64,000 nt of DNA. It comes from a virus. The DNA lies in the IMG/VR virus record IMGVR_UViG_3300027280_000002, positions 47,330 through 111,329 of that record; one strand, written 5' to 3'. The notes below the pieces were generated by a model. That model saw nothing but the letters and a program-made list of their open reading frames with translations, searched no databases and was not told the origin of the DNA. This document shows positions 9,246 to 44,600 of this stretch, piece by piece. The first letter of the stretch is position 1. Each line of letters begins with the position of its first letter. The translations under genes and the position numbers were made by a program.

Positions 9246-9292
9246 AATACCAGAGGTGTGAGGATAATACTCAATCCTCTGGTATTTTTTTT
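9246..9292 (+). terminator. Rho-independent terminator after the head block
   Basis: An 11-bp perfect stem, AATACCAGAGG (9246-9256) with CCTCTGGTATT (9276-9286), encloses a small inner stem TGAG/CTCA, and is followed by a T run to 9292. This is a textbook intrinsic terminator. It separates the head genes from the adhesin cassette and would lower transcription of the latter. It also shows that a GTG at 9258 inside the stem is not the start of the next gene. Confidence 0.9.
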
Positions 9293-9302
9293 AAATAAAT
9301 TT

Positions 9303-9869
9303 ATGGCAGCTAATTTTCAGTTAGATCTTATTGTTCCTCCAAGTTATAGTGTAAATCTACTTGCTGTTACAGATGCATCTGTCTATCCAGACAGCCCTCC
9401 TGTAGTATCAGCACCTAGTATTGAGATTCAAATTCCTGGATTTGGAACAAAGATAATCCCTTTTATACCTTTAGATACAAACATTTTTGCGTCAGATACC
9501 TTAGGCATTACTGAAGCTGGATGTAAACAACCTATTCCAGATGGAATTTACCATTTGAAATATTCGGTTGCACCTTCATATTTAAACTATGTTGAGAAAA
9601 CAATTATGCGCATAGACAAACTTCAAGAGAAATTTGACAATGCATTTTTAAAACTTAACATGATGGAGTGTGCTAGTGAAATAAAAACACAGTCAAGTGT
9701 TACATTAAATACAATTAATTTCTTTATTCAAGGCTCTGTAGCAGCTGCTAACAATTGTGCTGAAAAGGAATCAACAACATTATATAATCAAGCTAGTAAC
9801 ATGCTTGATACATTTATAAAATCAAACTGTGGTTGTACAGGTAACAACTACACAATAAACTTTCATTAA
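9303..9869 (+). CDS. Small conserved virion protein preceding the adhesin genes
   Basis: I set the start at ATG 9303 (MAANFQLDLI, 188 residues), because the longer frame from GTG 9258 would run through the terminator stem. The N-terminal half is beta-rich and Pro-rich, with strands typical of small virion base proteins (PDGIYHLKYSVAPS). The C-terminal half is helical (KTIMRIDKLQEKFDNAFLKL), with several Cys (MECASE, NNCAEKE, SNCGCTG near the end). It has no catalytic motif. The gene lies 2 bases before the next tiny Cys-rich gene and close to the 1200-residue adhesin, so it probably anchors or assembles that fibre. The pairing with a following protein that starts SPRLTNCKECA is one I recall from other Bacteroidota phages. 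Confidence 0.55.
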   Translation: MAANFQLDLIVPPSYSVNLLAVTDASVYPDSPPVVSAPSIEIQIPGFGTKIIPFIPLDTNIFASDTLGITEAGCKQPIPDGIYHLKYSVAPSYLNYVEKTIMRIDKLQEKFDNAFLKLNMMECASEIKTQSSVTLNTINFFIQGSVAAANNCAEKESTTLYNQASNMLDTFIKSNCGCTGNNYTINFH

Positions 9870-9871
9870 TT

Positions 9872-9970
9872 ATGGCGCAATGTGCAGGATGTGGAGCTCA
9901 GGTGGGATGTGGTTGTAGACTAAGTAACGGTCTATGCAGCACCTGTCAGCCCAAAGTAAATAAAAAGTAA
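9872..9970 (+). CDS. 32-residue Cys-rich mini-protein
   Basis: A short frame, ATG 9872 to TAA 9970, encodes 32 residues with seven Cys: pattern C-x2-C-x5-GCGC followed by CSTC near the end. The spacing suggests a small zinc-ribbon or disulfide-bonded knuckle. It starts 2 bases after the previous stop and has an ATTATGG start context like its neighbours. The dense pattern of Cys and Gly is not expected by chance in AT-rich DNA, so I regard it as a real gene. Function unknown; a structural cap or assembly cofactor for the neighbouring fibre proteins is an inference. No promoter of its own is visible. Confidence 0.6.
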   Translation: MAQCAGCGAQVGCGCRLSNGLCSTCQPKVNKK

Positions 9971-9988
9971 AGTAAAAAAGTAAGACAT

Positions 9989-12900
9989 ATGTTATCACCA
10001 AGACTAACGAATTGTAAAGAATGTGCAAACATTCCTGATTTACTTAGAAAAATAGATTGTAAATTAGCAGAGCTAGGAAACAACTTATACAACAATGTTG
10101 TATTTATGTTGAACAGACCTATTGCTGTTAGTCAGATTTCAGAACTGTTAGTATACAAACGTGTACTAACTTTTCGTTATTGTGATACACATTATGCATC
10201 AGGATGTCCGGAGGTAAGTACAGAAGATATTGCAAGCAAGGTTATTCGTCTTACTGCTGGTTGTGTTTCATTATGTAATGAACCTACAGTGTGTGAGATT
10301 ACAACATGTGCTATAATTCCTTGTCCTAATCCAACAACAACAACTACAAGTACCTCTAGTACCAGCACTACTACAACCACTAGCACCACAGCAACACCAA
10401 CCACCACCACTACTACAACGATAACCCCAGATTGTAGAATAGAAGGATGCTTTGATATTATAGCTTTATCTACTACAACTACTTCAACATCTTCAACATC
10501 TTCGACTACTACTACTAGTACAACTGTTGTACCGTTTGATTGTGCAGAGCCATTTAACTTAAGTTCTCCTGAAGCCTTTCCTAATGCTATCACTGGAAAT
10601 GGAACTAAAGTATTGAGTAATGGAGTTTTGCTAACTACATCGTATACTCCAAATACGTTTAACCAACCTCCTATCTATGTAGCTGGCGTCCCAGGCACAA
10701 CAGAAGTATGTAATGGAGCATATGTAACTTCTCAGTCTGGTGGACAAGGAACATTGTCAATGCGTGGAGGTTCAACTGTTGTAATGGACTTTAATCCTCC
10801 AATAAATGCTATAGCGCTTGTCACTCAGGGTTATGGTTCTAGTAAAGATCCATCAGCGCAAGAGACTGTGGTTATAACATCTACTGATGTAATTGTTGCT
10901 ACTGAATTAACAGCATGTGGTGACTATGCAACAACACAAATAAGTCAAAATGAAATTAATTTAACTGGATCACAAGCTCTTTATCCAAACTATTCTGCAG
11001 GAGTTACAGCAATTTCACCAATTAGTGGAGGTATAAGTCAATTACAAATTACAATTAACCCACCTGCTGATGCATTAGCTGGTATTGGTTTTGATTTTTA
11101 TGTATGTCCTGGCAGTAGTCCAATAACTACGACAACAACTAGCACGTCTAGTACAACTACTACTACAACAAGTAGTTCAACTAGTACAACTACTAGTACG
11201 ACTACAATTGTACCAACAACAACTACAACTACAACAATTGCTGCATGTGTGGATTGTATTCCTAGTGATGTAACAATTGGAACACAAACCTGGAGTAAGT
11301 GTAATTTAAATGTTGATACATATTTAAATGGTGATCCAATTCCAGAAGTAACAGACCCAAGTGCTTGGGTAGGATTAACTACAGGAGCTTGGTGTTACCA
11401 TAGCAATGATTCTGCAAATGAACCAACTTATGGAAAATTATATAATTGGTTTGCTGTTAATGATCCAAGAGGGTTAGCTCCTGCAGGTTATCATATTCCA
11501 ACTAATGATGAACTAATTACATTAATTAATTATATTGACCCAGCTTCATCAGGAGGTGCAACTGTACCAAATAATGCAGGAGGTCCATTAAAAGAAGTAC
11601 AATTCTGTCATTGGGATGCACCTAATACTGCAGCAACAAATAGTTCAGGTTTCACAGGTCTTCCAGGAGGTTTTCGTGAGCCTCTCTCTGGGGTGTTTGG
11701 TGGTATTAATGAGGGTGGTACATGGTGGAGTAGTACAGACGAGATAGTAGGGCCTGATGCTTTTGCTTTTAGTTTATACAATAATCAGACTTGGGCGTAT
11801 AGAAATGACTGGAATCAAAATCACGGTTATTCAGTTCGTCTAATAAAAGATACAGGAACTACAACAACCACCACTTTAGCACCAACAACCACTACAACTA
11901 GTACATCTAGTACATCAACTACAACTAGTACAACAACTGTTGCTCCTACTACAACTAGTACAACAACTGTTGCTCCTACTACCACTACTACAACTACAGT
12001 GGTGGCACCAACAACAACTACAACCACAACGGTAACACCTACTACAACTACAACAACAACTATTACACCACTAGTTGGATGTCTAGAGTTTGACTATTTA
12101 AGTCTTATAGTTAGTAGCGATTGGATTCTAGATCCACCTACTGACTCTCTATTTGCTCGAGCAGATTATTTTACAGGACCAACTACAAACACAACAAGTT
12201 ATACCAACTGGTCTCAAGTTCCAAATACCAACTATGATGTAGTATTTAATATAGGAGGAGTAGACTATACAGCAGTGTATCAATTTATCAATGTTGGAAC
12301 TGGAGGAGTTACTGTTCCTTATGGTAAATTTAGTGTTAACAGTGTCAACTTCTCAGCTATGTCTACATTCCAATTTTCAAAGATAGATGCAAATGGTAAT
12401 GACTTATCATCAATACTTTCTACCTTTGATCATACAACTGGAGATGGTTATAAAGTTACTGCATATGGAGATTGTACAACACCAACAACAACAACTACAA
12501 CCACTGTAGCTCCAACAACAACAACTACAACCACCTTACCTGTTTTCCTTTGTACAGATCCACTACTAACAGTATCTTTACCTGATGGAATTGTAGGAGA
12601 TCCACTGAATGGAAGTGTTGTATATGATGGACTCAATCTAGCTATAACTGGTTACACTTATGGTGGGGGTAATACAACTGTATATATTGCTGGAACAGTT
12701 GCTTATACGCTTGCATTTATTGTTCCTTCAGGATATAGTAACTCAGGATCTGCTACTGGTTGCGCTGTTGCAGCAACTGGTACAACACCAACAACTACAA
12801 CTACAACAACTGTTGCTCCTACTACTACAACTACAACCACTAGTGCAAAAAGCTACGATATTAATTGGCAAGTTGATGGAGGAGGAAATGGATTTAAAGA

Positions 12901-13591
12901 AGCAGAATTACAATTATTTAAAAATGGAGCGAGTGTAGTAACTCAAGTTATTACTAATGGCACGCCTTCGGTACAAGGATTGTTTTCAAGTTCTAACGGT
13001 GATGTTATTAATGCTAAACTTACTACTAAGAACTTAACAAGTGAAGAGACTCAAGTGCAGAATAGTTTTTCATTGATAGGAGCAGGAGGTGGAGGTCTGC
13101 AAGAATTAGATACAGGTATACTACAACCACCTGCTGGTGGAGTCACAAATTCACTTGCGACTAGTTTTAGTACTGGATATACTCAACCTGGTGTTACTAA
13201 TGGTCCTTTATTATTATTTAAAGTAAATCAAGAACAAATAGCATCATCTGAAATTACTATGTCGCTTACTAATAACGGTGCTAATTTTAACTTTGAAATA
13301 GAAGATAATGATCAGCCAGGTGATCCTGTAGTATTGAGTATACCAACAACTGGTCCACTTTGGAATGGTAATTATTATTATGACTTCTTAGTTGGTAGAG
13401 AATATACAGTTACATTTCCATATTCAAACAACGAAGTTGGAGGTGTATCTACTGAACTAGTTATAAGCGGTGGTGGAATGACACCATTTAGCGATCAGGT
13501 GGATAATCCTTCTGGTTCAGTAAACACTATAACCCATACATTTACAGTATTAAATGCTACATCAATAGTAATTGAAGCATTTGAATATTAA
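9989..13591 (+). CDS. Multidomain adhesin with Thr-rich linkers and a FISUMP (C-type-lectin-like) domain
   Basis: The 1200 residues are arranged as beads on a string. Residues 1-110 form a Cys-containing base (SPRLTNCKECANIPDLLRK) likely to dock on the virion. Then come globular domains separated by linkers of mainly Thr with some Ser/Pro/Ala, at about residues 115-150, 160-180, 380-415, 622-695, 830-850 and 930-950. Residues about 420-620 form a clear FISUMP domain: start TIGTQTWSKCNLNVDTY, then GKLYNWFAV, PAGYHIPTNDEL, GLPGGFRE, WWSSTDE and YSVRLIKD. That family has a C-type-lectin-like fold and is used for ligand binding. The last 250 residues contain Ig-like strands. Threonine linkers are potential glycosylation sites and keep domains apart. 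Likely role: receptor-binding fibre; the receptor is unknown. Confidence 0.75.
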   Translation: MLSPRLTNCKECANIPDLLRKIDCKLAELGNNLYNNVVFMLNRPIAVSQISELLVYKRVLTFRYCDTHYASGCPEVSTEDIASKVIRLTAGCVSLCNEPTVCEITTCAIIPCPNPTTTTTSTSSTSTTTTTSTTATPTTTTTTTITPDCRIEGCFDIIALSTTTTSTSSTSSTTTTSTTVVPFDCAEPFNLSSPEAFPNAITGNGTKVLSNGVLLTTSYTPNTFNQPPIYVAGVPGTTEVCNGAYVTSQSGGQGTLSMRGGSTVVMDFNPPINAIALVTQGYGSSKDPSAQETVVITSTDVIVATELTACGDYATTQISQNEINLTGSQALYPNYSAGVTAISPISGGISQLQITINPPADALAGIGFDFYVCPGSSPITTTTTSTSSTTTTTTSSSTSTTTSTTTIVPTTTTTTTIAACVDCIPSDVTIGTQTWSKCNLNVDTYLNGDPIPEVTDPSAWVGLTTGAWCYHSNDSANEPTYGKLYNWFAVNDPRGLAPAGYHIPTNDELITLINYIDPASSGGATVPNNAGGPLKEVQFCHWDAPNTAATNSSGFTGLPGGFREPLSGVFGGINEGGTWWSSTDEIVGPDAFAFSLYNNQTWAYRNDWNQNHGYSVRLIKDTGTTTTTTLAPTTTTTSTSSTSTTTSTTTVAPTTTSTTTVAPTTTTTTTVVAPTTTTTTTVTPTTTTTTTITPLVGCLEFDYLSLIVSSDWILDPPTDSLFARADYFTGPTTNTTSYTNWSQVPNTNYDVVFNIGGVDYTAVYQFINVGTGGVTVPYGKFSVNSVNFSAMSTFQFSKIDANGNDLSSILSTFDHTTGDGYKVTAYGDCTTPTTTTTTTVAPTTTTTTTLPVFLCTDPLLTVSLPDGIVGDPLNGSVVYDGLNLAITGYTYGGGNTTVYIAGTVAYTLAFIVPSGYSNSGSATGCAVAATGTTPTTTTTTTVAPTTTTTTTSAKSYDINWQVDGGGNGFKEAELQLFKNGASVVTQVITNGTPSVQGLFSSSNGDVINAKLTTKNLTSEETQVQNSFSLIGAGGGGLQELDTGILQPPAGGVTNSLATSFSTGYTQPGVTNGPLLLFKVNQEQIASSEITMSLTNNGANFNFEIEDNDQPGDPVVLSIPTTGPLWNGNYYYDFLVGREYTVTFPYSNNEVGGVSTELVISGGGMTPFSDQVDNPSGSVNTITHTFTVLNATSIVIEAFEY
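10336..12840 (+). repeat. Threonine-codon repeats encoding linkers
   Basis: At least six blocks of ACN codons (with AGT/TCT Ser and CCA/CCT Pro) encode linkers inside the 1200-residue adhesin, notably 10336-10435, 10465-10530, 11125-11240, 11855-12070, 12475-12540 and 12780-12842. The codons are mixed (ACA, ACT, ACC, ACG), so protein sequence is kept while exact DNA repeats are broken up. Similar blocks occur at 15235-15265, 15530-15595, 17950-17980, 19625-19705, 20060-20135, 20185-20205, 30395-30450 and 31700-31750. They are natural sites for recombination between fibre genes. Antisense frames over them read as Val-rich and are artefacts. Confidence 0.85.
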
Positions 13592-13613
13592 TAACAAATA
13601 AAATAAAAAAATT

Positions 13614-14696
13614 ATGTCAACACAAAATTGCTCAAATTGTTATAACGGATGCACTGAAATTACTTCAGACAGATGTGTTAAATATACAGGAGTAGATGTT
13701 CCTATTTTAGGAATACAGACTGGGGACTCTCTATCTTTTGTAGAGCAGGCTATTATAACTTTCTTAAGTTCTACAATTGATGGAACAGGAGTATTTCCTA
13801 TAATACAACCAACTGATATATGTCCAATCGTAGAAGCTAACTTGCCAGTATGTGATCCGCTTTCTTTAAACAATTATCTTACAGGTATAGTTCAAACTAT
13901 CTGTAACTTAAATGAACAAATACAACTTATAGAAGAAAGTGAACCAACCAGTGCATATGAGGTAGGATGTGTGTCAGGAGTAACAGATAACACTTCTACT
14001 CAAGATGTTTTACAACAAACTATAGTAAAGTTATGTGAAGTTGAGCAATCACTAAATACTTTCATTACAGATGTTACTACTAACTATGTAAGAATCGTTG
14101 ATATAAATACATATATAGATAACTATTTTAACACTAACCCTACACAACAATTAATAAATAATAGAATGGTTCCATTCTCTGCTCAACCTTATTTTGGAGA
14201 CTTGTCTCCATTTAGTCAGTCAGGAGCTGGTATAGGCGTTTGGGATAGAATCTTTTTATGTAATGGGCAAAATGGAACACCTGATCTTAGAGGAAGAGTA
14301 CCAGTTGGTACTACTAGTGGAATGGGAGGAGCTTCGTTAGATTCTGCAGTTGACCCTAATGTAGCTGGAAACCCAACATATAATCTTAATACTCCTGTTG
14401 GAACTAACAGTGTTACATTAGGTATTACACAAATACCTTCACATACACATACAATTACCATTGGACCATCAACGCCTACAATAACCCCTACAGGAAAGGC
14501 AGCAGGACCTTACGTTGGTAATAATATTGGTGGAGGATTTAAAGGTGGGGATAATGACTTTAAAATGAGATCGTTTGTAGCAGATCCCCTTCCACCGCAT
14601 TCACATTCTGCTACAATAAATCCGACAGGTGGAGGATTATCACATGATAATTTTCAACCTGGCCTTGGATCATATTATATAATTTACATACCTTAA
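13614..14696 (+). CDS. Tail collar-domain fibre protein
   Basis: This 360-residue protein has three parts. Residues 1-55 form a Cys/YTG module (NCSNCYNGC, then RCVKYTGVDVPILGIQTGD) shared with other fibre genes here. Residues 60-185 are a helical, Asn-rich stalk. Residues about 190-360 contain a tail collar domain: WDRIFLCNGQNGTPDLRGRV, then QIPSHTHTITIG, and the C-terminal HSHSATINP and SYYIIYIP. The same signature occurs in short tail fibres such as T4 gp12, where the His pairs bind a metal at the trimer axis; that role is known for the family and inferred here. The protein likely forms a trimeric receptor-binding fibre tip. It follows the large adhesin by 22 bases. Confidence 0.8.
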   Translation: MSTQNCSNCYNGCTEITSDRCVKYTGVDVPILGIQTGDSLSFVEQAIITFLSSTIDGTGVFPIIQPTDICPIVEANLPVCDPLSLNNYLTGIVQTICNLNEQIQLIEESEPTSAYEVGCVSGVTDNTSTQDVLQQTIVKLCEVEQSLNTFITDVTTNYVRIVDINTYIDNYFNTNPTQQLINNRMVPFSAQPYFGDLSPFSQSGAGIGVWDRIFLCNGQNGTPDLRGRVPVGTTSGMGGASLDSAVDPNVAGNPTYNLNTPVGTNSVTLGITQIPSHTHTITIGPSTPTITPTGKAAGPYVGNNIGGGFKGGDNDFKMRSFVADPLPPHSHSATINPTGGGLSHDNFQPGLGSYYIIYIP

Positions 14697-14708
14697 AATA
14701 AAAACAAA

Positions 14709-15020
14709 ATGGCATACTTACCTGTAAATCCTTGTTGCACAGATGTAGTTTCAAACACTCCTTGTGGATGTTCAAGCACTACAAGCAATAATCCTTGTGC
14801 AACTGGGGTACATTATTCAAAGTCTATTACATACAATGGACCTGTATTACCTTGTTCAAATGTGCAACCTTGTGATGATTTAAACATTGCTTTGTCTAAA
14901 ATTGACGCAATTATTTGTACATTGGTAAACCAACAAGCAATCAATACATCTGAAATTGCTACTATAAAGCAGCAAGTAATAAGTATAAATCAAACATTAA
15001 CAACTTGTTGTGACTCATAA
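14709..15020 (+). CDS. Small Cys-rich fibre-base protein
   Basis: 103 residues. The first half is very Cys-rich (NPCCTDVV, TPCGCSS, NPCATG, LPCSNVQPCDD) and includes a YNGPVLPC stretch that matches the YxG module of the neighbouring collar fibre. The second half (DDLNIALSKIDAIICTLVNQ and following) is a heptad-like helix, probably a trimeric coiled coil, ending in CCDS. It has no enzymatic signature. It overlaps the next start by one base (TAATG). It looks like a free-standing docking and trimerisation unit, possibly a connector or a cap at an unoccupied fibre site; that role is inferred. Confidence 0.6.
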   Translation: MAYLPVNPCCTDVVSNTPCGCSSTTSNNPCATGVHYSKSITYNGPVLPCSNVQPCDDLNIALSKIDAIICTLVNQQAINTSEIATIKQQVISINQTLTTCCDS

Positions 15021-15268
15021 TGGAAGCAATCTTAACACTAAATACAGCAGGAAATAATACTGGATCTTTTAATCTGTTTTCAGACGTAGATGGATTTAGT
15101 GTTGCTTTTCAAACAAATGTAACTAAAACCCAGTTATTGAATGGGTATACAGCTGTGATGCCTGATTACACTACTATAGTAAAAGTAGCATCAGGTTCAG
15201 TTTGTAAAAATAGTATTGAGATAACACTAGAACAAACAACCACAACAACCACCACAATAACACCGTAG
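15020..15268 (+). CDS. Stand-alone copy of the GPF/LFS module with Thr tail
   Basis: 82 residues made of a single small beta module (key pattern G-S-F-N-L-F-S, then F-Q-T-N-V, L-L-N-G-Y, a Thr-Val strand and a Cys-Lys-Asn turn) followed by seven Thr and ITP. The same module begins three longer proteins at 15273, 19407 and 20772, and a diverged form is at 20515 and 31927. Here nothing follows the Thr linker, so the protein may be the remnant of a longer adhesin or a functional short form. The stop is TAG and the next ATG starts 4 bases later. It could have lost its C-terminal domain through recombination in the Thr repeat. Confidence 0.6.
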   Translation: MEAILTLNTAGNNTGSFNLFSDVDGFSVAFQTNVTKTQLLNGYTAVMPDYTTIVKVASGSVCKNSIEITLEQTTTTTTTITP

Positions 15269-15272
15269 GACA

Positions 15273-18038
15273 ATGACAATACTTATAACATTAACTTTAG
15301 CAGGCATAGATACAGGTCCATTTGATCTATATTCTGATGCAGATAATTATCAAAATGCATTTGAGACTAATGTTTCCAGACAAGATCTATTGAATGGTTA
15401 CACTTCTAATAATGCCCCTGTTGGAACTACTACTGTTAGGTTAGATAGTACAAATCAGACTTGCGGTTCAGTGGATATATATTCTTGTGTTAGACCAAAT
15501 TGTGATTTTACAGGAGAGATAATTTGTGATATTACAACAACTACAACCAGTACATCTTCATCTTCAACTACAACTACTACTACTACATCAAGTGGACCTG
15601 GACCAATTACTTCACTATGTCTTTGGTCAACTCTTAACGAAGGAACCTCCGGAGAACTAGGAGTATATAATATAGACACCAATGTAGTAACTACAGTATT
15701 AGTTCCTAATGACTTTTTAGTAACCCAAGGTGTAACTAGACCTATATGTAGTACACAAAATAAACTTTGGTTAGCTAGTGAAACAGACCTTACCCAGAAC
15801 AACTTTATAATTAGAGAATATGATGTAACTTTTACATCAGGTAATGTAGGTTTATCTTTTACAAGAGACATTACTGTTAGCACACAAGGTATCCTATCAT
15901 ACCCTGGTTATTCTAGAGTTGGTTCTGAATGTACGGCACTAACTGCTATTAATGATACAAGTATAATAATAGTTTTTGGTGGACCAACTGCTACTGTTAT
16001 TTCACCAGATGTATGGGGTTTTACTATTGATATAAGTCAAACAGGTAATATTGCTAAAAATCTAACATCTAGTATTGGAAGAACTGTTAAACCTGTAATA
16101 AATACCTATGGTAAGGTTGTTTCAAACCCTAGACTACTATATCTTAATAACGGTGATGTTATTACTAGTATGAGGATGGATGGCGAAGTTGATGGTCCTT
16201 ATAATGGGAATTATCTACAACAATACAACATTTCAAATAATGATCGTATAACTGGAACTATGAAGTTGCAGGATTTAGGCATTCCAGAATTTACCGTTAA
16301 TTACACTTCTGAGAAATATATAGATATATTCTCAATAAATAGTAAATTATATGCTCTTCAACCAGAATTAAATAGAGTATATGAAATATCACAAACTCCT
16401 GACTACCAACAACAATCATCAAATCTTGTAGGTACAAATGTAAAAAGTTTATCTACAACTAGTGGTTGTGCAGATATTACCCTTTATGCAGAACCAGAAT
16501 GTGAATCTACTACAATACCTAATATGTACGACCAAGCAGGAGATGTGTACATAGGTCCAGTACCGTTTACGTATGCAGGTGTGACTGTTATGGCTAGTAG
16601 TACACTTGCTGCTGGATCTAACGGAATTGTTGGTACTGGTGGAGGGGTGACACTATATAAGTTGTGCGCTTATACTGGACTAGTTATAGCCTATGACTTT
16701 GTTGTTCAAGGGTCCGTATTTGAAATTATACTAACGTTTGCTCAACCTGTAAATAATATTCCAATAACAGCTGCAGTACTAAATACCGTATTAACTGAAG
16801 AAGGTGAATTTAGTAATGGAGACATTTATCAAGTAGATACAAATACAGAAACTCCAACTCTTTCAATATCGACAGGTTATGGAGTTAAGGTTATTGGTAA
16901 CCAGTTTGGAGGAATAGATTATTATAATAATGACAATAATGGAGAGTTTATTGTAACTTGTGAAACTGACTATACTATATTAACTTTATCAGGACAAGCT
17001 CCTACTGGTGGACCAGTTGGATTAGGATGTACTGTACCACCTCTAAATTGTAATAGAATATTTAGTGAACCTAGTCAAGGAAGAGACTGTGTTCCTGGAG
17101 TGTGTGCTCCTCAAAACAACTGGCCATCTTCAGGTCCTGAATATAAAAAGCTCTACTCACACAATGTTGCAACAGGAGTTTTAGAAGAAATACCATACCC
17201 AGCAGCAAGCGCTTTCACGACTCCTAACAGTGATGTTAGTGAAACTTATTTAATAAATCAACTACTGTTAACAAATGCAGAAAGTCTTACAACAAGTTTT
17301 AGATTTGCAAGATATAGATATAATGAGTCATCAACTGGGGTACCTCAAAACCTTGATTGGGACGGCATAGTTTATGAAATAGATAAAAATGATTTACCTG
17401 GTGTATTTAGTAATTTTATATATGGACTAAGTGCAATTAATGATGATGTAATAAGTCTTAATTACCAACGCACTACTGCAGGTGGTGGTGGTCACATGGT
17501 GGTTGAAGCACAATTTGTACCAGGATCTACAACATTAGCAATAACTGAAAAATTTACAATACCTGAGCCATTTAATGGAGGTAGTGAGAGTGTAGTAACT
17601 CTTAACGAAGATGGAACACCAAATAAATTTATAGCTTTACGATCAAACGAACCTGTGATAATTTCACAATTTGATTATGCTACAGGTAATTTTGAAGGTG
17701 ATGTTGAATTATCTGCTCCAGGAAACCCTGAAAACTATAGAACTGGAGGAGACATGTGTGTAATTGGTGACTTCTTATATATTTCTATAAAAGATTTACC
17801 TAATAATAACACTGACTTATGGAAGGTTAGTTTCGATACACTAGAATGGAGCATTGCAGAGTCTGATGATAGTTATAATGGTGGAAGTTCAGGAAGTAAA
17901 CCAAGCTGTAGAATAAGTAATGGATTTACATCATTTGATCCACCGCCATCTACTACAACTACTAGTACAACAACAGGGCTGCCAGCAGGAGTAAAAACAA
18001 TATGGACTACATTTTCAGCCTACACATCCCCAATATAA
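15273..18038 (+). CDS. Large adhesin: GPF/LYS module, Thr linker, beta-propeller-like body
   Basis: 921 residues. Residues 1-80 are the recurrent module (GPFDLYSDADNY, FETNV, LLNGYTS, GTTTVRL, TCGSVDI). Residues about 88-108 are a Thr/Ser linker. The body to about residue 895 is beta-rich with repeated units of the type LYVYNI/KLWLASE/ITSMRMDGEVDG, an arrangement like the blades of a propeller or of secreted binding proteins. Two sub-bodies are visible, split near residue 410 by a Cys-containing stretch (ECESTTIPNMYDQAGDVYIG), the second restarting near residue 590. A short Thr linker (SDPPPSTTTTSTTT-like, about 892-905) precedes a short C-terminus. A receptor- or polysaccharide-binding tail protein is the likely role. 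No glycosidase residues stand out. Confidence 0.6.
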   Translation: MTILITLTLAGIDTGPFDLYSDADNYQNAFETNVSRQDLLNGYTSNNAPVGTTTVRLDSTNQTCGSVDIYSCVRPNCDFTGEIICDITTTTTSTSSSSTTTTTTTSSGPGPITSLCLWSTLNEGTSGELGVYNIDTNVVTTVLVPNDFLVTQGVTRPICSTQNKLWLASETDLTQNNFIIREYDVTFTSGNVGLSFTRDITVSTQGILSYPGYSRVGSECTALTAINDTSIIIVFGGPTATVISPDVWGFTIDISQTGNIAKNLTSSIGRTVKPVINTYGKVVSNPRLLYLNNGDVITSMRMDGEVDGPYNGNYLQQYNISNNDRITGTMKLQDLGIPEFTVNYTSEKYIDIFSINSKLYALQPELNRVYEISQTPDYQQQSSNLVGTNVKSLSTTSGCADITLYAEPECESTTIPNMYDQAGDVYIGPVPFTYAGVTVMASSTLAAGSNGIVGTGGGVTLYKLCAYTGLVIAYDFVVQGSVFEIILTFAQPVNNIPITAAVLNTVLTEEGEFSNGDIYQVDTNTETPTLSISTGYGVKVIGNQFGGIDYYNNDNNGEFIVTCETDYTILTLSGQAPTGGPVGLGCTVPPLNCNRIFSEPSQGRDCVPGVCAPQNNWPSSGPEYKKLYSHNVATGVLEEIPYPAASAFTTPNSDVSETYLINQLLLTNAESLTTSFRFARYRYNESSTGVPQNLDWDGIVYEIDKNDLPGVFSNFIYGLSAINDDVISLNYQRTTAGGGGHMVVEAQFVPGSTTLAITEKFTIPEPFNGGSESVVTLNEDGTPNKFIALRSNEPVIISQFDYATGNFEGDVELSAPGNPENYRTGGDMCVIGDFLYISIKDLPNNNTDLWKVSFDTLEWSIAESDDSYNGGSSGSKPSCRISNGFTSFDPPPSTTTTSTTTGLPAGVKTIWTTFSAYTSPI

Positions 18039-18045
18039 ATAAGCT

Positions 18046-19395
18046 ATGGAAGGAAAAATAACAAAAGAAGTATCAAAAAAGATTAAGGAATTAGCTATTC
18101 AATATCCTCAAGCAGTTTCTATTGGTTTGGGTAAAAAAATAACTAATGGAGTTGATACTGGAGAATTTGCTATAGTTATATCTATACCAAAAAAGAAGAA
18201 ACTTTCTGAACTTACATCTTCTGAAATAATAGTTGATAATGTAACTATAGAAAATGAAGGAGTGGTAAAAGTAGATATTATAGAAGAAACTATTATACAA
18301 CATTTAGGATGTGACGCATTTTGTGGTAACACAGCAGCAGGTTCAAATAATGCAGCTAATAGAGCAACCAATCAACTGATGCAAGGAGGTATTTCCTTCT
18401 CTAGCAGAAATAATACAAAAACTGTAGGAACATTAGGAGGAATGGTAAAACATGTAGAAACTGGTACAACCGTAGGTTTAACTAATAATCATGTATCAAT
18501 AAATGATGCTTTTTACACTTCAGATAGAGACATAAATAATCAATACTTAAATGATGCATTTCCAGTTAATCGTGTGTATCAAAATGGAGAAAATGGTCCT
18601 AACACTCCTGTTAGTAATAATATGGGAGTTAGTCTAAGGTATGTACCTATTCATAAAAAAAGTACAGGTATATGGAATCAAGTAGATGCAGCTATCTGTT
18701 CTATAGTTGAATCTAGATTTAATATAAATACTGCTTGGAATCAAATAGGGTTAGAATCTATATTAGGTAGTACTGCTCCACCTTTTGCTAGTACAGCTGA
18801 ATTAGATTTATTATTAACTATCAATCCTCGTGTATATAGTTCTGGAAGAACAACTGGACCAAAAGGATTAATGCCTGAATGTCCTATGACAATATCAGCA
18901 GTTGATGCACTTGTTACCAGTATAGGATACCAAATGCAGAATCCTACACAAGCAAACTTAGCAGATGCTCAGAATAGTCCTTATTATGTAGTCTGTCAAT
19001 TTGATAGAGCTATTAAGTTTGTAAAACCAAATAACGATACACCTGACAGTACAGTTCCAGGATGTATAAATCCTATATTTAGTGGAGATTCTGGATCTTT
19101 TCTTTTAGCAGAATTAAATGGGACTATTAAAATAATAGGACTTTGTTATGCAGGAAGTTCAAATAGTCAAGGTCAAGTAACCACAGGAATCGCCTGTAGG
19201 ATAGATGATGTAGTACAACAATTAGGAATAGCTGCATATGATCCAGATGATGTATTAGCTGGAAGATTAGCTGACCCTGACAGTATAATATATATTACAG
19301 AACCAGGAACAAGTGATGATAAAATAAGATCTTGTAATTCCAAAACATACTGGCAAGCAGGTTTTACAGATACATTAGAAAATCAATGCGTATAA
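18046..19395 (+). CDS. Trypsin-like serine protease within the adhesin cassette
   Basis: 449 residues with all three catalytic elements of a chymotrypsin-fold protease in the right order: His149 in GLTNNHVS, Asp214 in NQVDAAI, Ser349 in FSGDSGSF. The oxyanion-type GDSG motif is canonical. A SSGRTTGPKG element before the Ser motif and the N-terminal domain (AVSIGLGKKITNG, VISIPKKKKLSEL, residues 20-60) match a bacterial/phage group of NAL1-like trypsin-fold peptidases, in which an N-terminal domain of the type VGVGxK precedes the protease. There is no signal peptide, so it would be carried in or on the virion or act in the cell. It lies 7 bases after one adhesin and 11 before the next. Possible roles: maturation of fibre proteins or cleavage of host surface proteins. 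Confidence 0.8.
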   Translation: MEGKITKEVSKKIKELAIQYPQAVSIGLGKKITNGVDTGEFAIVISIPKKKKLSELTSSEIIVDNVTIENEGVVKVDIIEETIIQHLGCDAFCGNTAAGSNNAANRATNQLMQGGISFSSRNNTKTVGTLGGMVKHVETGTTVGLTNNHVSINDAFYTSDRDINNQYLNDAFPVNRVYQNGENGPNTPVSNNMGVSLRYVPIHKKSTGIWNQVDAAICSIVESRFNINTAWNQIGLESILGSTAPPFASTAELDLLLTINPRVYSSGRTTGPKGLMPECPMTISAVDALVTSIGYQMQNPTQANLADAQNSPYYVVCQFDRAIKFVKPNNDTPDSTVPGCINPIFSGDSGSFLLAELNGTIKIIGLCYAGSSNSQGQVTTGIACRIDDVVQQLGIAAYDPDDVLAGRLADPDSIIYITEPGTSDDKIRSCNSKTYWQAGFTDTLENQCV

Positions 19396-19406
19396 TAAAT
19401 TAAGAT

Positions 19407-20495
19407 ATGTTAATACAAATAAATATAACAATTCCTCCAACTGGCAGTGCTGGACCATTTGATTTATTTTCAGATGCAAATGCATACAGTTCTCCATTTC
19501 AAACACAAGTTCCAGCTACTGCTTTAGAAAATGGCTATGTGGTAACACTTCCTATAGGTGCAACTATTATTAGAGTGTGTTCTGTTGGTACGTGTGAAAA
19601 CTGTATTGACTTACCAACTAATTGTCCAACTACAACTACAACATCTACTAGTTCAACAACAACAACTACAAGTACAAGTAGTACAACTACAACAACTACC
19701 ACTGCACCTCCGCCATATGAATTTAACTTTGAGTTATATACACAAACTCCAGGTTATATAGGAACTGTAAATTTAGTAATAAATGTAGATGGTTCTCCTG
19801 TAACAAATACAACAATAACTAGTGGGGCTGATTTTGCATCTGGAACTATCAATGTACTAGAAGGTCAAGTTGTAACCGCAACTATTACTAACTCTAATGT
19901 AGGAACTTGGGATCTACGAAATATAGTTAGCAAAGACGGTAGCGCTTATCAACCTGAAGATGCTTGTGATGATTGTAATCAATTAATTACACCACTTTTT
20001 TCTTCATATACAATGGAGCCATTTAATACACTTTTTCAATTTGGAGGAAATATAATTGTTCCAACAACAACTACAACAACAAGTACAAGCACAAGTACAA
20101 GTACAAGTACAACAAGTACGACAAGTACAACTACTACTATAGCGTGTTGTTTAAACGGTCCAGTTGCAGTAATTGTTCCACTTACTACCACCACTACAAC
20201 TTCCTCAGGAGGCTTTCTTGAGCCAGCTCAGATTTCATCACAAGGTGCAAACAGTAGCGGTGCAGCATGTGGTTTAAATATAAATACTAATATATGGGCA
20301 AGAACTGAAATTACAGGAGTAATTTCGCCAGGTGATTCCTTGTGGAATAATCCAACTGGAACTAGTCCTTATGTTGGAAATGATAACTTTAGACGTTTAA
20401 AACTAACAGAAAGCATAAGTGCTCAATCCGAAAAAGGAGTATATCTACCTGAAGGAGATAATGTGATCCAATCACCTTTCTCAATATGTTCATAA
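19407..20495 (+). CDS. Adhesin: GPF/LFS module, Thr linkers, Ig-like domains
   Basis: 362 residues. Residues 1-73 are the recurrent module (GPFDLFSDANAYSSPF, then LENGYV, GATIIRVCS, TCENCIDL). Thr/Ser linkers lie at about 74-103, 219-246 and 259-266. Between them is an Ig-like domain (residues 105-215; FNFELYTQTPGYIGTVNLV) that resembles the C-terminal domain of the 1200-residue adhesin. The C-terminal 95 residues form another small beta domain (NTNIWARTEITGVISPGD). The gene starts 11 bases after the protease. It is likely a tail fibre or surface-binding subunit. Thr-Ser dipeptide repeats (STSTSTSTST) at about residues 224-235 are exact at the DNA level and may vary in length. Confidence 0.6.
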   Translation: MLIQINITIPPTGSAGPFDLFSDANAYSSPFQTQVPATALENGYVVTLPIGATIIRVCSVGTCENCIDLPTNCPTTTTTSTSSTTTTTSTSSTTTTTTTAPPPYEFNFELYTQTPGYIGTVNLVINVDGSPVTNTTITSGADFASGTINVLEGQVVTATITNSNVGTWDLRNIVSKDGSAYQPEDACDDCNQLITPLFSSYTMEPFNTLFQFGGNIIVPTTTTTTSTSTSTSTSTTSTTSTTTTIACCLNGPVAVIVPLTTTTTTSSGGFLEPAQISSQGANSSGAACGLNINTNIWARTEITGVISPGDSLWNNPTGTSPYVGNDNFRRLKLTESISAQSEKGVYLPEGDNVIQSPFSICS

Positions 20496-20514
20496 TCATT
20501 TAAAAAATAATAAA

Positions 20515-20766
20515 ATGGCACAACCACCACTAAAATTTCCTGTAAAAGTAACTCTCGTAAGCGCTTGTTCAAGCTCAGGACCTTGTGACATATATGGAAA
20601 CTCAGATAATTTTACAGTACCTCTTGTTCAAAATGTATTGATATCTACACTTACTAGTCCTATTGGATATGTTTTTGTAGGAGGCGTTCCTTCTGGAACT
20701 ACTATTTTAAGAATTCAAAATACAGGAACTTGTACAAACTATGTAGATGTGCCAATAACATTTTAA
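20515..20766 (+). CDS. Single-module small virion protein
   Basis: 83 residues, essentially just the recurrent module in a diverged form: GPCDIYGNSDNF, a middle strand, then GTTILRIQNTGTCTNYVDV. It has no Thr linker and no second domain. The residue pattern (Ser-Gly-Pro-Cys/Phe-Asp, Gly-Thr-Thr-x-x-Arg, Thr-Cys) links it to the proteins at 15020, 15273, 19407 and 20772. Its stop lies 5 bases before the next ATG. It may occupy a docking site without presenting a receptor-binding domain, or be an adaptor; both are inferences. Confidence 0.6.
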   Translation: MAQPPLKFPVKVTLVSACSSSGPCDIYGNSDNFTVPLVQNVLISTLTSPIGYVFVGGVPSGTTILRIQNTGTCTNYVDVPITF

Positions 20767-20771
20767 TAATT

Positions 20772-21440
20772 ATGACAGAATCAATACAAATACAATCAAA
20801 TAACATTGGTATAGATGCAGGTCCATTTAATATATTTTCCCAAGTAAATGGATTTACAGAAGCATTTGAAACTGATATAACACCTGTGCAATTACTTATC
20901 GGATTTATTTCTTATAATGCACCTGTTGGAACTACGACTATACGAGTGGTATCAACTAGTGAGGATTGTAATGATTATGTAGAGGAGACAGTAGACGATG
21001 TTCCACTCTGTCAAGATAAGGTAGTGGTATTTCAAGTTTGTAACTCAAACGCTTTAGTAGATGATAATTTTGATGTTTTTCTAAATGGAGTTTTAATTGG
21101 AAACTTAGACTTGCAACAACCTGCTCAAGTTGGTTCAGTTTTCATAGGCAGTACTTCTACTTTAACTATAGGAACTTCAGATTTCACATGTCCTTTAAAC
21201 TTAATGCAGGAGTTCTTTTTTGACCCTGCTCTTATATCTACTACTAATGTTATAGATATGGTAAATACCCAAAATAATGGAAACGGTAATGCAGGAACAT
21301 TTGAAATAAGAAACTATGAATTAACCGGCACTGTGTTATCAAATGCTTGTATTGTAAAAAATGCTAATTTTGAAGGAGTTAGTGGTGATAGTTTTCAATT
21401 CGATTGGAACTATACTCAATGTTGTCCAGACCCCACATAA
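20772..21440 (+). CDS. Adhesin-like protein: GPF/IFS module plus one beta domain
   Basis: I chose ATG 20772 (MTESIQIQSN, 222 residues); the longer frame from 20730 would overlap the preceding gene, and its extra residues do not fit the module. Residues 1-75 are the recurrent module (AGPFNIFSQVNGFTEAFETDI, with GTTTIRVVS and a Cys). The remainder is a compact beta domain (VVFQVCNSNALVDDNFDVFL) that ends in CCPDPT. There is no Thr linker. It is the last gene before the strong double hairpin, so it closes the adhesin transcript. Probable minor tail fibre or virion surface protein. Confidence 0.55.
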   Translation: MTESIQIQSNNIGIDAGPFNIFSQVNGFTEAFETDITPVQLLIGFISYNAPVGTTTIRVVSTSEDCNDYVEETVDDVPLCQDKVVVFQVCNSNALVDDNFDVFLNGVLIGNLDLQQPAQVGSVFIGSTSTLTIGTSDFTCPLNLMQEFFFDPALISTTNVIDMVNTQNNGNGNAGTFEIRNYELTGTVLSNACIVKNANFEGVSGDSFQFDWNYTQCCPDPT

Positions 21441-38975: not shown

Positions 38976-41672
38976 ATGGCATCATACTTAGATAACATAC
39001 CTACCTTCAATGAATATAGAGAGCAACTTCCTGTGGAGGATATGCTTAAGGTTGGTCTGTTCAAACAACAACGTTATGAAGAGGGCGTACAGAAAATTCA
39101 AAAAAGCATAGATAATATTGCTGGACTGGATGTAGTAAGAGACGTAGATAAAAAGTATCTACAATCCAAACTAAACTCTCTTGGAGGACAATTACAAAGT
39201 GTAGCAGCTTCGGATTTTTCAAACTTTCAACTTGTTAATACTGTAGACGGTATGACAAACCAATTAGTTAAAGATCCTAACATACTAAATGCTGTAGGGT
39301 CCGCAGCTAAATATAGAAAGCAACTAGAGAATCAAGAAAAGATTAACCTAGATGGCAAAGGTTCAGAATCAAATGACTGGAACTTTAATAAGAGTGTACA
39401 ACAATGGTATGAGGGAGGCATAGATGCTTCTTTTAATACACAGTTTAAACCTTATGTTAATTTCAATGAACAAGCTATGAAAATAGTTAAAGCTCTTGCT
39501 TCTGATAGCATTGAGGGAGATGTTTACATGGAGAAAGATAAGAATGGAAGAACAGTAATATACAATGTACTTACAAGAGAAAAAGTAGAAGGCATATCTG
39601 CTGATAAAATACAAACTGCATTAATGGCTGGACTTACTCCAGATGCATTTAATCAAATGAACATTGATGGACAATACCAATATTCAAATGTTTCTGATGA
39701 TCAATTTGTAAATGATATTAATGAAAGTTATTCTAATACTTTTAATGCACTTTTAAAAGAAAGAAATTCTTTAGAAAGCATAATGAACGATGCATCTACT
39801 GCTTCAGAAAAGATTAGAATTCAAAATCAGATAGACCAATTAGATTCTCAAACAAATCTTTTAAAGAATGAGTATGAAAATGTATCAGGTTCATTTACTG
39901 AAGGAGATGTAGAGAGTTCAAAAGCTAGGCTATATTCTACTAACTGGATGAGAGATTTTTCTAATTCTATGTCAAGTAAAAATGTTTCGCAAACTGTTCA
40001 TAGTAATCCAGCAAGAGCAGATCAGTTAAAGGTACTACAAATGCAACAGGATGCTGCTCAGTTTAATGCTAAATATTTACAGACTGAAAAAAATAATAAA
40101 ATCAGAAATGCAATAGAAGAACGAAAAGCAGAAGTATTAGAAAAAGCAAATCAAGAAGGTTACGGTGGTGTTCCAATGCCAGGTGGAGAAGAAGAAGATG
40201 ATGTGGATGTTGTGGCTTACGCAGAACTTGATAAAGATAACAGTGAAGCTTTACGTGATCAGTACAAAGAAAAATACATGAAGACTCATGGAAAAAGTAA
40301 AGAGGAACTTGAAGACCTGTTGGCTAATTTCAAAAAAAGTCAAGGATCTGCTGTAGCCTCTGATCTTCATTCAGCACTTTCTGAAATAGTTAAGTTAGAG
40401 GAAGATTATACTCGTAAGGATGAAGTTATTACTAAGCTTCGTAAAGAGTCTTTATTACTATTTCCTACTCCTGTAGAGCTTGAAAGATTAAATAAAACAA
40501 TTACAGTAAATTTTGATGATACATCAAATGGTCAAGTAATACCTAGTACTCTTTCTATAGATTATAACTCAATGGATGTCATGTTTGAGAAGTTTCAAAA
40601 ATATGTATATTCTGACACAGATGGTGATGACATGCCTTTACCAGATAGTATAAATCAAAGAAGTATTGATAGAGCTCAAAGTGAATTAAGTGGTGAGGAA
40701 TTAGCAGTGTTCAATCAAATTTTTGTTCCTGGATACGACAGAGGAGCTCTTTATGGAGTTAGCAGCAGTAGTGGTTCAGACGTATATGATGACTGGGCTA
40801 ATTCACGTAAACCAAGAGCAGCTATGAAAGATAATCTTGATGAAGATAGAAACAAATATCTGGCTGATGAACTTAGACTTACTAGCATAGTTCCTCAATC
40901 AGTATCTTATAACATTCCACTAGAAGATAGTAAACAACAAAGAATTTTTGCAGGTACACTAGAAGGTTTAGCAAATGAGATTCAGAGTTTAGATGAAGAC
41001 AAGGCTGAAAACATAAGAAGGATTAGCAGTAAGCTTGTAAGTTCAAATATTATAACTAAAGGAATTGGAGATAACTATAGAGTAACTATAACTGGTTCTA
41101 CTGGATCTGGGAATTCTGTTGAAACTGAAACTATAGATATGACACCTGAGTTGTATTCAACTGTGTTTGGTGAGACATATGAACCCAGTCCTTCTATTGA
41201 ATATTTTAATAATAACTATCTTCCTTCTATGTTAGATACAAGACCAGACCTAGAAGAAGTTACAATTATTAATAGTGCAGGTAATAATGAAACTATTTAT
41301 ACAAGACCAGAACAAGACTTTTGGTCTACTTCTACAAACATGTCATACAATACTACACCGGCTACTGCTGGATTAAAAGGTAGAAGAGATTTTCCTAATA
41401 CAATATACTTTGGAGTTACTGGAGATTTGGTAACTAAGAGAAATCCTAAAGACCCTAATAGTGTTTATTATTTAAAATTAAATATAACCAATCCTATAAC
41501 TGGGGAGGTGACTTCAAACATTACACTTGATGTACCTTTTGTAAAAGAGAAAGTAGCAACAACATTACAAAAAATAAGCGATTCAGATATATATGAAATA
41601 CTAAATGGTAGAGGTGCTACTATGACAGACGAATATATTGCTAATCTCAAAAAGGCTGCTGAAAGCAACTAA
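38976..41672 (+). CDS. Virion cargo protein, conserved N-terminal helical region
   Basis: 898 residues, predominantly helical. The start, YLDNIPTFNEYREQLPVEDM, then KVGLFKQQRYEEGVQKIQKS and IDNIAGLDVVRDVDKKYL, is a region I recognise from many Bacteroidota phage internal proteins. Gln/Asn/Lys-rich helices continue to about residue 420, followed by an acidic loop (GGEEEDDVDVV), another helical segment, and a beta-rich C-terminal 250 residues. No catalytic motif is seen. It lies just ahead of the RNA polymerase gene in the cargo block and is probably co-packaged and ejected. A structural or chaperone role for the giant proteins is possible. Confidence 0.6.
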   Translation: MASYLDNIPTFNEYREQLPVEDMLKVGLFKQQRYEEGVQKIQKSIDNIAGLDVVRDVDKKYLQSKLNSLGGQLQSVAASDFSNFQLVNTVDGMTNQLVKDPNILNAVGSAAKYRKQLENQEKINLDGKGSESNDWNFNKSVQQWYEGGIDASFNTQFKPYVNFNEQAMKIVKALASDSIEGDVYMEKDKNGRTVIYNVLTREKVEGISADKIQTALMAGLTPDAFNQMNIDGQYQYSNVSDDQFVNDINESYSNTFNALLKERNSLESIMNDASTASEKIRIQNQIDQLDSQTNLLKNEYENVSGSFTEGDVESSKARLYSTNWMRDFSNSMSSKNVSQTVHSNPARADQLKVLQMQQDAAQFNAKYLQTEKNNKIRNAIEERKAEVLEKANQEGYGGVPMPGGEEEDDVDVVAYAELDKDNSEALRDQYKEKYMKTHGKSKEELEDLLANFKKSQGSAVASDLHSALSEIVKLEEDYTRKDEVITKLRKESLLLFPTPVELERLNKTITVNFDDTSNGQVIPSTLSIDYNSMDVMFEKFQKYVYSDTDGDDMPLPDSINQRSIDRAQSELSGEELAVFNQIFVPGYDRGALYGVSSSSGSDVYDDWANSRKPRAAMKDNLDEDRNKYLADELRLTSIVPQSVSYNIPLEDSKQQRIFAGTLEGLANEIQSLDEDKAENIRRISSKLVSSNIITKGIGDNYRVTITGSTGSGNSVETETIDMTPELYSTVFGETYEPSPSIEYFNNNYLPSMLDTRPDLEEVTIINSAGNNETIYTRPEQDFWSTSTNMSYNTTPATAGLKGRRDFPNTIYFGVTGDLVTKRNPKDPNSVYYLKLNITNPITGEVTSNITLDVPFVKEKVATTLQKISDSDIYEILNGRGATMTDEYIANLKKAAESN

Positions 41673-41682
41673 CAAAAACAAC

Positions 41683-44600
41683 ATGGCAAAAGATATAAAA
41701 AAAGCACAGACAGGTATAAACATACCTCCTATGGCAAATGTTCCTAGTCCTACTAGTTCAAACCAATCTTTTATGCAAGAAAGATTTGGTGGATATAGAG
41801 AACCAGGAAATCCAAGACCCATGCCTAATATATCTACACGTCCCAACTTAGGGGTTGTTAAACCTAATAACGGTAATCAACCAAGTGGACTAGACTTGCT
41901 TTTAAGAGATGCTAGCACAAGAGGTGACCGAGGTAAGGGAGATAGGATAACTACTGCAGATGAATATGAAGGAGCCGATAGATACGATTATTTTCAACCT
42001 TCGTCAATGGGAGTTGACAATGAAGACATGGCTGGACAATATCAATCTTTGGGCAGTAAAGCTGTAAACGGTGTAACTAAAGGACTTATTCTTGCAGGTA
42101 CAACATTTATACAAGGTACAGCAGGACTTGTTAATGGCGTGTATCAAGCAATAAATGATGGTAAGTTTTCGTCTTTCTATGATAATGAATTTAATAGAGG
42201 GTTAGATGGAATTAACAAGTGGTCTGAAGATGCTATGCCAAACTACTATACAGCAGCAGAAAGAGATGCTAATTTTTATTCTCCTAAATATTGGGCTACA
42301 GGAAATTTTGTATTTGATGGTGTAATTAAGAATCTTGGATTTGCAGCTGGTGCTTATTTAACAGGTGGTGCATACACTAATGTATTAAAAGCACTTCCAG
42401 GAACCTCTAGATTATTTTCTATGGGTAAGGCAGCAGAAACTTTAGCTGCTACAGAAAAAGGATTAAGTGCAGCAAATAAAGGAGCTGGTGTATATGGTGA
42501 AATAAAAGCTTTATCAGATAGTTTCTTAGCACAATATAATTTACTTAACCCAGCAGGAAGAGCTGTGGTAGCAGGATTATCAACAACTGGTGAAGCAGGT
42601 ATTGAGGCGCTACATAACAGTAATGAGTTTAGACAAGAACTTATAGATGAATTTAAAAAAGAGTATGGTGTAGTTCCTGGTGCTGAACAAATGGATAATA
42701 TTAATGCAGCTGTAGAAGGAGCAGGTAACGCTTCTTTTTATGCTAATGTAGGAATACTAACTGCAAGTAATTATGTTATCTTTCCACGTATTGCACGTTC
42801 TAGTTTTAAAGCAGATAAACGAGCAATCAATGGTCTTGTAAGAGAGATAGATGATATTGCATATGAGGGAGGAAAGTATGCAGCAAAGACATCTAAGTTA
42901 CATCCTATACTACGTACTCTAAACAATATTAGACCTTACACATTTACTGTCTCAGAAGGACTAGAGGAAGTTTCACAGTATGGAAGTAGTGTAGGAACAC
43001 AAGATTATTACAATAAGCAATATAATAACGAAGCAACTAGTTGGTTAACATCTATAGGTGTAGGTTTAACTAAAGGTGTCTTTAGTGATGAGGGTGCAAA
43101 GAATGCATTGATTGGTGGATTGTCTGGTGGTATAATGACTGGACGAGGTAGGTATAGAAGAAATCAACAAAGAGCAGCAGATACAGCAGAGGCTATAGAG
43201 CTACTAAATGATTTTCAACTCTCTGACTTTACAAAAGAAAGTATATATTCTAACAATAGAGCTGGTGTTTTAGGAGAAGAGCTTGAACAAGCTGCTGAAC
43301 GTGGAGACATGTTGTCTTATAAAAACCTAGAAAGTCAATACATAATCAACTACCTTACTCCTAGAATAAAATATGGTAGATTAGACTTAGTTATGCAAGA
43401 CATAGCAGATATGAAAAAGCTGTCTTCTACTGAACAAGGATTTGCTCAACTGGTTGCAGAAGGAAAAGTTCAAGAAGGAGAAACAAAAGAAACTTTTATT
43501 GCACGTCTAGAAAACTTTAAACAAACAGCTAATGACGTAAATAGTCTATACCAATCTTTAGAGCTTAGGTATGGAGGAATTACTGAAGAAGGTGTTGATG
43601 GAAAAAGATATCGTACGTACGGACCAGCTGTAATAAATAAAATGATATACGCAGCTTCTACAGTTGCAGATACAGACAGTCGCATACCTCAACTATCAGC
43701 AGAGTTACAAGCTGCAATTCCCACTTTAAATATACAAGAGATATTACAAGATCTAATAAGTGGAGAGGTTGAAAGCTTTAATAATGCTGTTAATCAAATA
43801 CAAAACTTAGATATACTTTCTGATAAAAAAGATGTATTAGGAGAAAAGTTAAACGACGTAGCTGCTCTAGCTAAGATTAGAGAACTAATGCTACAAGAGT
43901 ATGAGCTTATAAAAACTAATCCTAAAAACTTTCAAGAGAAGCCATTACGTCAACAAGATAGTGTTAAAACATACGAGGAAATATTAGAAGATGATGCCAA
44001 TACTTTTGTAATTAAAGCTAAGAATGGAGAACAGTCATTACAAATAGGACAAGAGTATTTTGTAGGACAAGGTGTAAACTTTGAAGGGGAAACACCTCTT
44101 GATGAACCAGTAGTAATAAGTAGTTTTGTTCCAGTAGGACAGAATGAAGATGGAACTATTCAGATCAAAGATCAGTCTGGCCAGGTAAGGGATATATCAC
44201 CAGATGTTTTATTAGATTATAATGTAGGTAGAAAATCTACATTAGTTAATAACAAGACAGCTAACTTCTATTACAGGCATAGGGATAAAGTATTTGAATT
44301 TAACTTTGGTAAAAACTTTGGAGGTAAAAGAAAAGGAAGACTTATGTATGATAATGGGAAACTGTTTTTTGTATATAAAGATTCTAATGGTACTATTCTT
44401 AAAAAAGAATTAGCTAATAAGTTTTTTGCACCACAACCTGGATTTGATCAAGCAAGAATTACTCCAGTAGGAAAAGTTACTGCTGAACAACAAGATGCTG
44501 CAAATCAGTTTCTTAGTCCAGAGGAGTTAGCAAAGAATGAACAAACTCTTCAGTCAAATAGAGAGAATAGGCTTAAGATAATGAATGACTTAGGCGTAGA

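Follow-up and report, generated by a model that had tools for sequence, protein, structure and literature searches.

Phage-tail enzymes are mostly known as cutters of glycan or peptidoglycan. In tailspike depolymerases, a glycan-cutting site is carried on the receptor-binding apparatus. In T-even phages gp38 is mounted on gp37, the genes of gp38 and Tfa-like proteins lie directly downstream of the fibre gene, and gp38 of phage PP01 is reported to be the fibre tip (PMC12892980). The phage protein family PHROG 20754 is named 'protease' only, with no context or further function, and searches of the open literature turned up no account of a protease of this kind in a tail fibre, which is not in itself proof of novelty.

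The protease described here would share with tailspike depolymerases the placement of an enzyme on the receptor-binding apparatus, although its active site is that of a protease. It also resembles the gp38/Tfa-like proteins in that its gene lies directly downstream of a fibre gene and in its predicted non-covalent attachment at the fibre C-terminus. However, it has a NAL1/chymotrypsin fold and no homology to these proteins, the likeness being one of working and not of membership. It is predicted to be an enzyme and not an adhesin or chaperone, to be attached by a short linear tag, and it may bear further modules.

The protease gene and its fibre locus

The stretch of DNA analysed (the window, 64,000 nucleotides, spanning bases 47330-111329 of a viral record 111 kb long) belongs to a crAss-like phage, with the capsid, portal and terminase families of Crassvirales all present. 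Its major capsid protein matches Crass_capsid (PF23898, E 1e-32) and its portal phrog_6547 (3e-94), and the portal is distant from those of named Crassvirales, at 24-29% identity. The protease gene (Table 1) matches phrog_20754 over residues 9-230 (E 7e-13), and Pfam, NCBIfam and single-sequence PDB searches with the window protease gave no match. An earlier note on this DNA had read a full His149-Asp214-Ser349 triad with a GDSG motif from the sequence; the three residues are indeed unchanged throughout an 18-sequence alignment and in all 58 distinct homologues. Six Cys (89, 93, 279, 340, 430 and 448) are also invariant in the 58 homologues.

The AlphaFold2 model of the window protease (pLDDT 77, pTM 0.86) was compared with known structures by Foldseek. 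Rice NAL1 accounts for the best 34 PDB matches, over ~414 columns or nearly the full length, with E down to 6e-17 and TM-scores of 0.56-0.58 when the query sets the normalisation and of 0.6-0.7 when NAL1 does, and chymotrypsin-fold bacterial proteases come next. The model has the overall NAL1 fold of an N-terminal domain and a double beta-barrel. Similarity in sequence is much lower, with ~15% identity in the structural alignment and a weak profile alignment (E 0.2) in which the LTN-x-HV and GDSGS motifs of NAL1, with the catalytic His and Ser, fall on the phage motifs. Pfam NAL1_N is marginal (E 0.022 in 4 of 18 homologues) and Nal1_C reaches a best E of 0.027 in some homologues, with neither found in the window protein; the NAL1-like N-terminal domain proposed earlier is thus upheld by fold and remains marginal by sequence. 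Taken together, the PHROG match, the invariant triad, the NAL1-matching model and the aligned motifs therefore indicate a distant NAL1-like enzyme, and the gene product is predicted to be a catalytically competent serine protease. It differs from NAL1 in the six invariant Cys, in a conserved C-terminal YWQxG motif and in its fusion to phage adhesins. The N-terminus MEGKITKEVSKKIKELAIQYPQ is without signal-peptide character, in agreement with the earlier reading, and the Cys content (2.2%) is the same as that of the neighbouring fibre proteins. In one homologous contig (L166, 1160-2457) the protease reading frame is broken, through error or decay.

Table 1. Features of the fibre locus, in window coordinates
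Feature	Position	Strand	Basis
Anchor-plus-modules fibre protein of 1200 aa, with modules that also follow the protease in fused forms	9989..13591	+	
Collar-type tail-fibre protein; in most relatives directly follows the protease	13614..14696	+	
Adhesin of 921 aa with a C-terminal tag; N-terminal anchor of the FDLFSD type, body beta-rich and propeller-like, Thr/Ser linkers present; predicted protease partner	15273..18038	+	
Thr/Ser linker TTTTSTTT ahead of the tag	17952..17975	+	
C-terminal tag GVKTIWTTFSAYTSPI-end, core TIWTTF	17988..18035	+	
NAL1-like serine protease (predicted), stand-alone form, 449 aa	18046..19395	+	PHROG match, AlphaFold2 model, Foldseek
Catalytic His149 codon (TNNHV)	18490..18492	+	Invariant, 58 homologues
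Catalytic Asp214 codon (QVDAA)	18685..18687	+	Invariant, 58 homologues
Catalytic Ser349 codon (SGDSGS)	19090..19092	+	Invariant, 58 homologues
FDLFSD-anchored, linker-rich adhesin, downstream of the protease	19407..20495	+	

The gene lies 7 nt behind one adhesin ORF and 11 nt ahead of another, in a hypervariable fibre locus (window 9258-21440) bounded by a 203-aa gene and an exonuclease gene. Three types of anchor are conserved in the locus (two distinct types of 103 aa and the FDLFSD type) and bear exchangeable distal parts via Thr/Ser linkers, the protease being one such exchangeable part. Among 50 related records, defined by a closely related capsid protein (89-98% identical), the protease is present in 17, and a profile search of the remaining 33 found none; in 14 of these the absence is real because they span the whole capsid-to-exonuclease interval. 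The protease gene is an optional part of the hypervariable fibre locus, and the suggestion that fibre loci rarely hold such an enzyme was mistaken for this group of phages.

Across 74 loci the upstream gene ends 2-24 nt from the protease gene, in all three relative frames. A programmed frameshift linking adhesin and protease was rejected, since all three frames occur. The upstream gene usually has the body domain of the window's tagged adhesin, set on varying anchors. This domain (window 15573-17102) is beta-rich (model pLDDT 80), and a fold search returned beta-propeller-type matches only, with low TM-scores; its second half resembles a repeat of the first. Residues 428-620 of the window's anchor-plus-modules protein match the Fibrobacter succinogenes major domain (PF09603, E 8e-35), here as a phage-fibre module, and relatives have the same module on further fibre proteins.

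A fused form, in which a single polypeptide of 780-1300 aa has the protease as its N-terminal domain, makes up 14 of 57 tree rows. The protease domain stops immediately behind its conserved last Cys, and Thr/Ser linkers and adhesin modules come next. Several of these modules also occur in the window's anchor-plus-modules protein (up to 70-93% identical), and the fused proteins begin with the protease and not with any anchor known elsewhere in the locus. The stand-alone protease of the window falls inside a mostly fused clade, and the tree needs four state changes. The possibility that the fused state is an assembly artefact was rejected, as it is found on many contigs from different samples. 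Since sister phages have the protease covalently joined to an adhesin, it is very likely a component of the virion fibres. The proposal that the enzyme rides on the virion thereby gains strong indirect support, both from these fusions and from a tag that tracks the protease; its presence in virions is what we infer from fusion and locus together.

A C-terminal tag on the upstream protein

The proteins encoded upstream almost always end in a linker and the motif T-[IVL]-[WFY]-x-x-F, with up to ~14 further residues before the stop; in the window adhesin this linker and tag read TTTTSTTTGLPAGVKTIWTTFSAYTSPI. The tag is found on 47 of 49 distinct upstream C-termini, including those of adhesins without detectable homology to the body domain, a result which weakened an initial view of the propeller-like body as the partner of the protease. 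Comparison of distance matrices gave no body-protease co-evolution beyond chance (partial rho -0.11). In a sample of old and new loci, the strict motif ends 44 of 57 distinct upstream proteins and none of 548 other distinct ORFs. A relaxed form (M or A also allowed in place of I/V/L, and Y in place of F), set after the data had been seen, unlike the strict one, raises the first count to 50 of 57 and leaves the second at 0 of 548 (Fisher p 5e-66, a value that overstates independence because the sequences are homologous).

Wider scans added distant homologues on contigs of up to 308 kb. Of 23 distinct lineages found after the motif had been defined, 13 carry the strict motif, 6 more the relaxed one and 3 related forms, and one (L418) has none; an adjacent tag was not found in L170, L172 and L418, where the protease is present. 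When all loci were scanned, ORFs with linker plus tag were found only ahead of proteases, barring spurious small ORFs, loci ending before the protease, proteases missed by the pattern and one unlinked adhesin group. The short contigs L252-L256 and L286 hold tagged adhesins with no adjacent protease, and an unlinked protease is predicted in those genomes. The tag is also present in a 174-kb phage which has contractile-sheath genes and no Crass-capsid match (in a search without a positive control), so the tag-protease pair appears to cross virion types.

The number of tags equals the number of proteases in 11 of 11 complete or near-complete records (86-119 kb), with two of each in G051, one of each in G060, G061, G027, G062, G016 and the window's own genome, and none of either in G055, G033, G018 and G056. 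Linker ORFs number 6-13 per genome across these records, and Thr/Ser-linked fibre ORFs number 7-13 without the protease against 6-13 with it. Trimming of the fibres inside Thr linkers, which the earlier note had considered, is unlikely because linker fibres are equally common without the protease; moreover, the fused proteases retain up to 16 Thr/Ser linkers within their own chain.

In most genomes no more than a few dozen bases separate tag and protease, and linkage by itself could therefore hold their types together. G051 differs in this respect. Its two tags are GVNTIFTYFQGVTP and SGIRTIYTHFDAL, and the adhesin ending in SGIRTIYTHFDAL is encoded in the main fibre locus, where no protease follows it; two proteases stand in tandem at a distance of more than 50 kb. 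Before the tree was built, the second of these was predicted to join the clade that has GFNTIYTHFEAL on its neighbours, and this is where it falls, with 95-98% branch support. This unlinked match of types, seen in a single species (G051 and a pair of near-identical contigs), is the best evidence for mutual recognition of tag and protease as opposed to mere adjacency.

Further arrangements involve more than one tag. In L394-396 a tagged adhesin is followed by a protease that has a linker and another tag, VGPFTSFVTFESYNC, at its own end, and then by a second protease. In L445, this second tag type stands directly at the end of an adhesin with a 98% identical anchor, and the protease behind that adhesin is 74% identical to the second protease of L394-396; L394 and L445 thus have the same anchor, a different tag and the matching protease type. 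These regions (L394 4547-9581, L445 4002-7710) show protease types with their own tags and two consecutive proteases, a possible daisy chain. Two tandem tags at the adhesin C-terminus with one protease behind were observed in L439 (3694-5754) and L442 (5246-5794). The chained and tandem tags of L394-396, L439 and L442 look like docking sites.

Proposed docking and its alternatives

The best reading of the tag is that it docks the protease on the adhesin, by analogy with gp38 on gp37 in T-even phages. The protease would then be a removable tail-fibre component, probably held on the virion by non-covalent docking to the motif T-[IVL]-[WFY]-x-x-F. This strand-like peptide would be presented, at the tip of a flexible Thr/Ser linker, by the C-terminal end of the adhesin whose gene lies just upstream, and every type of protease would recognise a tag type of its own. 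The docked protease of sister phages would bear further linker-joined adhesin modules that lengthen the fibre, and would therefore serve as a joint within it; in the lineage where the first protease ends in the tag type preceding the second, a daisy chain may be formed. On contact between fibre and cell, the enzyme would most likely cleave host surface or secreted proteins, comparable to the action of glycan depolymerase tailspikes on capsules. We consider a fibre-mounted protease docked in this way, active and directed at a host substrate, to be the probable arrangement, with appreciable room for doubt. Counting against it are the proteases of L170, L172 and L418 without an adjacent tag, the lack of distance co-variation between body and protease, and the usual closeness of tag and protease genes, with the unlinked match confined to one species.

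The main rival to docking is that the tag is a substrate, which a maturation protease would cleave at the C-terminal end of the upstream adhesin or fused fibre during assembly, in the way of processing proteases or clipped C-terminal chaperones. The coupling of tag and protease is equally expected here, a short conserved motif on a flexible linker also fits a cleavage site, and the G051 type match is compatible with either kind of recognition. However, cleavage would leave the fused proteases and their modules without a visible anchor, the likely P1 site has no fixed residue type (K, R, H, W, T or Y precedes the last aromatic of the tag), and the tags on both the adhesin and the first protease in L394, like the tandem tags in L439 and L442, suit docking better. 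Such processing is regarded as unlikely. The tag might alternatively be an inhibitor lying in the active site and keeping the fibre-bound protease latent until cell contact; this idea, which would account for one tag per protease and for type specificity and in which the strand-like peptide could occupy the protease cleft, is given little credence.

That the usual position of the tag, no more than 60 nt from the start of the protease, and the apparent location of recombination breakpoints in the linker just ahead of it, reflect DNA signals is a further alternative, in which the tag is kept only by overlap with the start region of the protease gene or a recombination site and travels by linkage. 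However, the amino-acid pattern of the tag survives synonymous codons and W/F/Y swaps, its distance from the protease gene varies with all three frames in use, and intact tags occur on adhesins with no protease gene behind, making this account very improbable. Least credible of all is a protease working inside the infected cell, in takeover or counter-defence, and merely housed in the fibre locus, as the missing signal peptide would allow; the covalent fusion to adhesin modules, the fibre-like Cys content and the strict pairing with tagged adhesins all speak against it.

Distribution and significance

The comparison rests on metagenomic and redundant contigs. No match was obtained in phi14:2, crAss001 and Lbo-JY46, and tblastn of cultured phages with four homologues (P0001, L130, L124 and L176) up to E 10 gave one chance-level match and nothing else. 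Plasmids searched by tblastn with P0001 up to E 10 held no relative beyond chance level, tblastn with the L377 homologue up to E 1 returned nothing, and a search of 84,980 genomes of bacteria and archaea with two alignments confirmed no relative. The peptide-protease pair is found again in many unrelated large phages, and it seems to have gone undescribed so far. A broader and more tentative proposal, which we rate as somewhat doubtful, is that orthogonal tags and cognate NAL1-like proteases are plug-and-socket joints for exchangeable or daisy-chained enzyme fibres in large phages; in this view docking might activate the protease, which might even be joined to the tag by a covalent acyl link.

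If a trypsin-fold protease is indeed widespread on fibres, phages would also cut cell-surface proteins. The pairing of tag and protease would provide a simple rule for which fibre bears which enzyme, give context to a family so far called only 'protease' and may supply a new natural peptide-docking pair. The comparison also shows how crAss-like fibre loci are rebuilt from anchors, bodies, tags and modules. Elsewhere in the window, a 4302-codon ORF (41638-54546) adjoins further very large ORFs of 2230, 1191 and 1621 aa.
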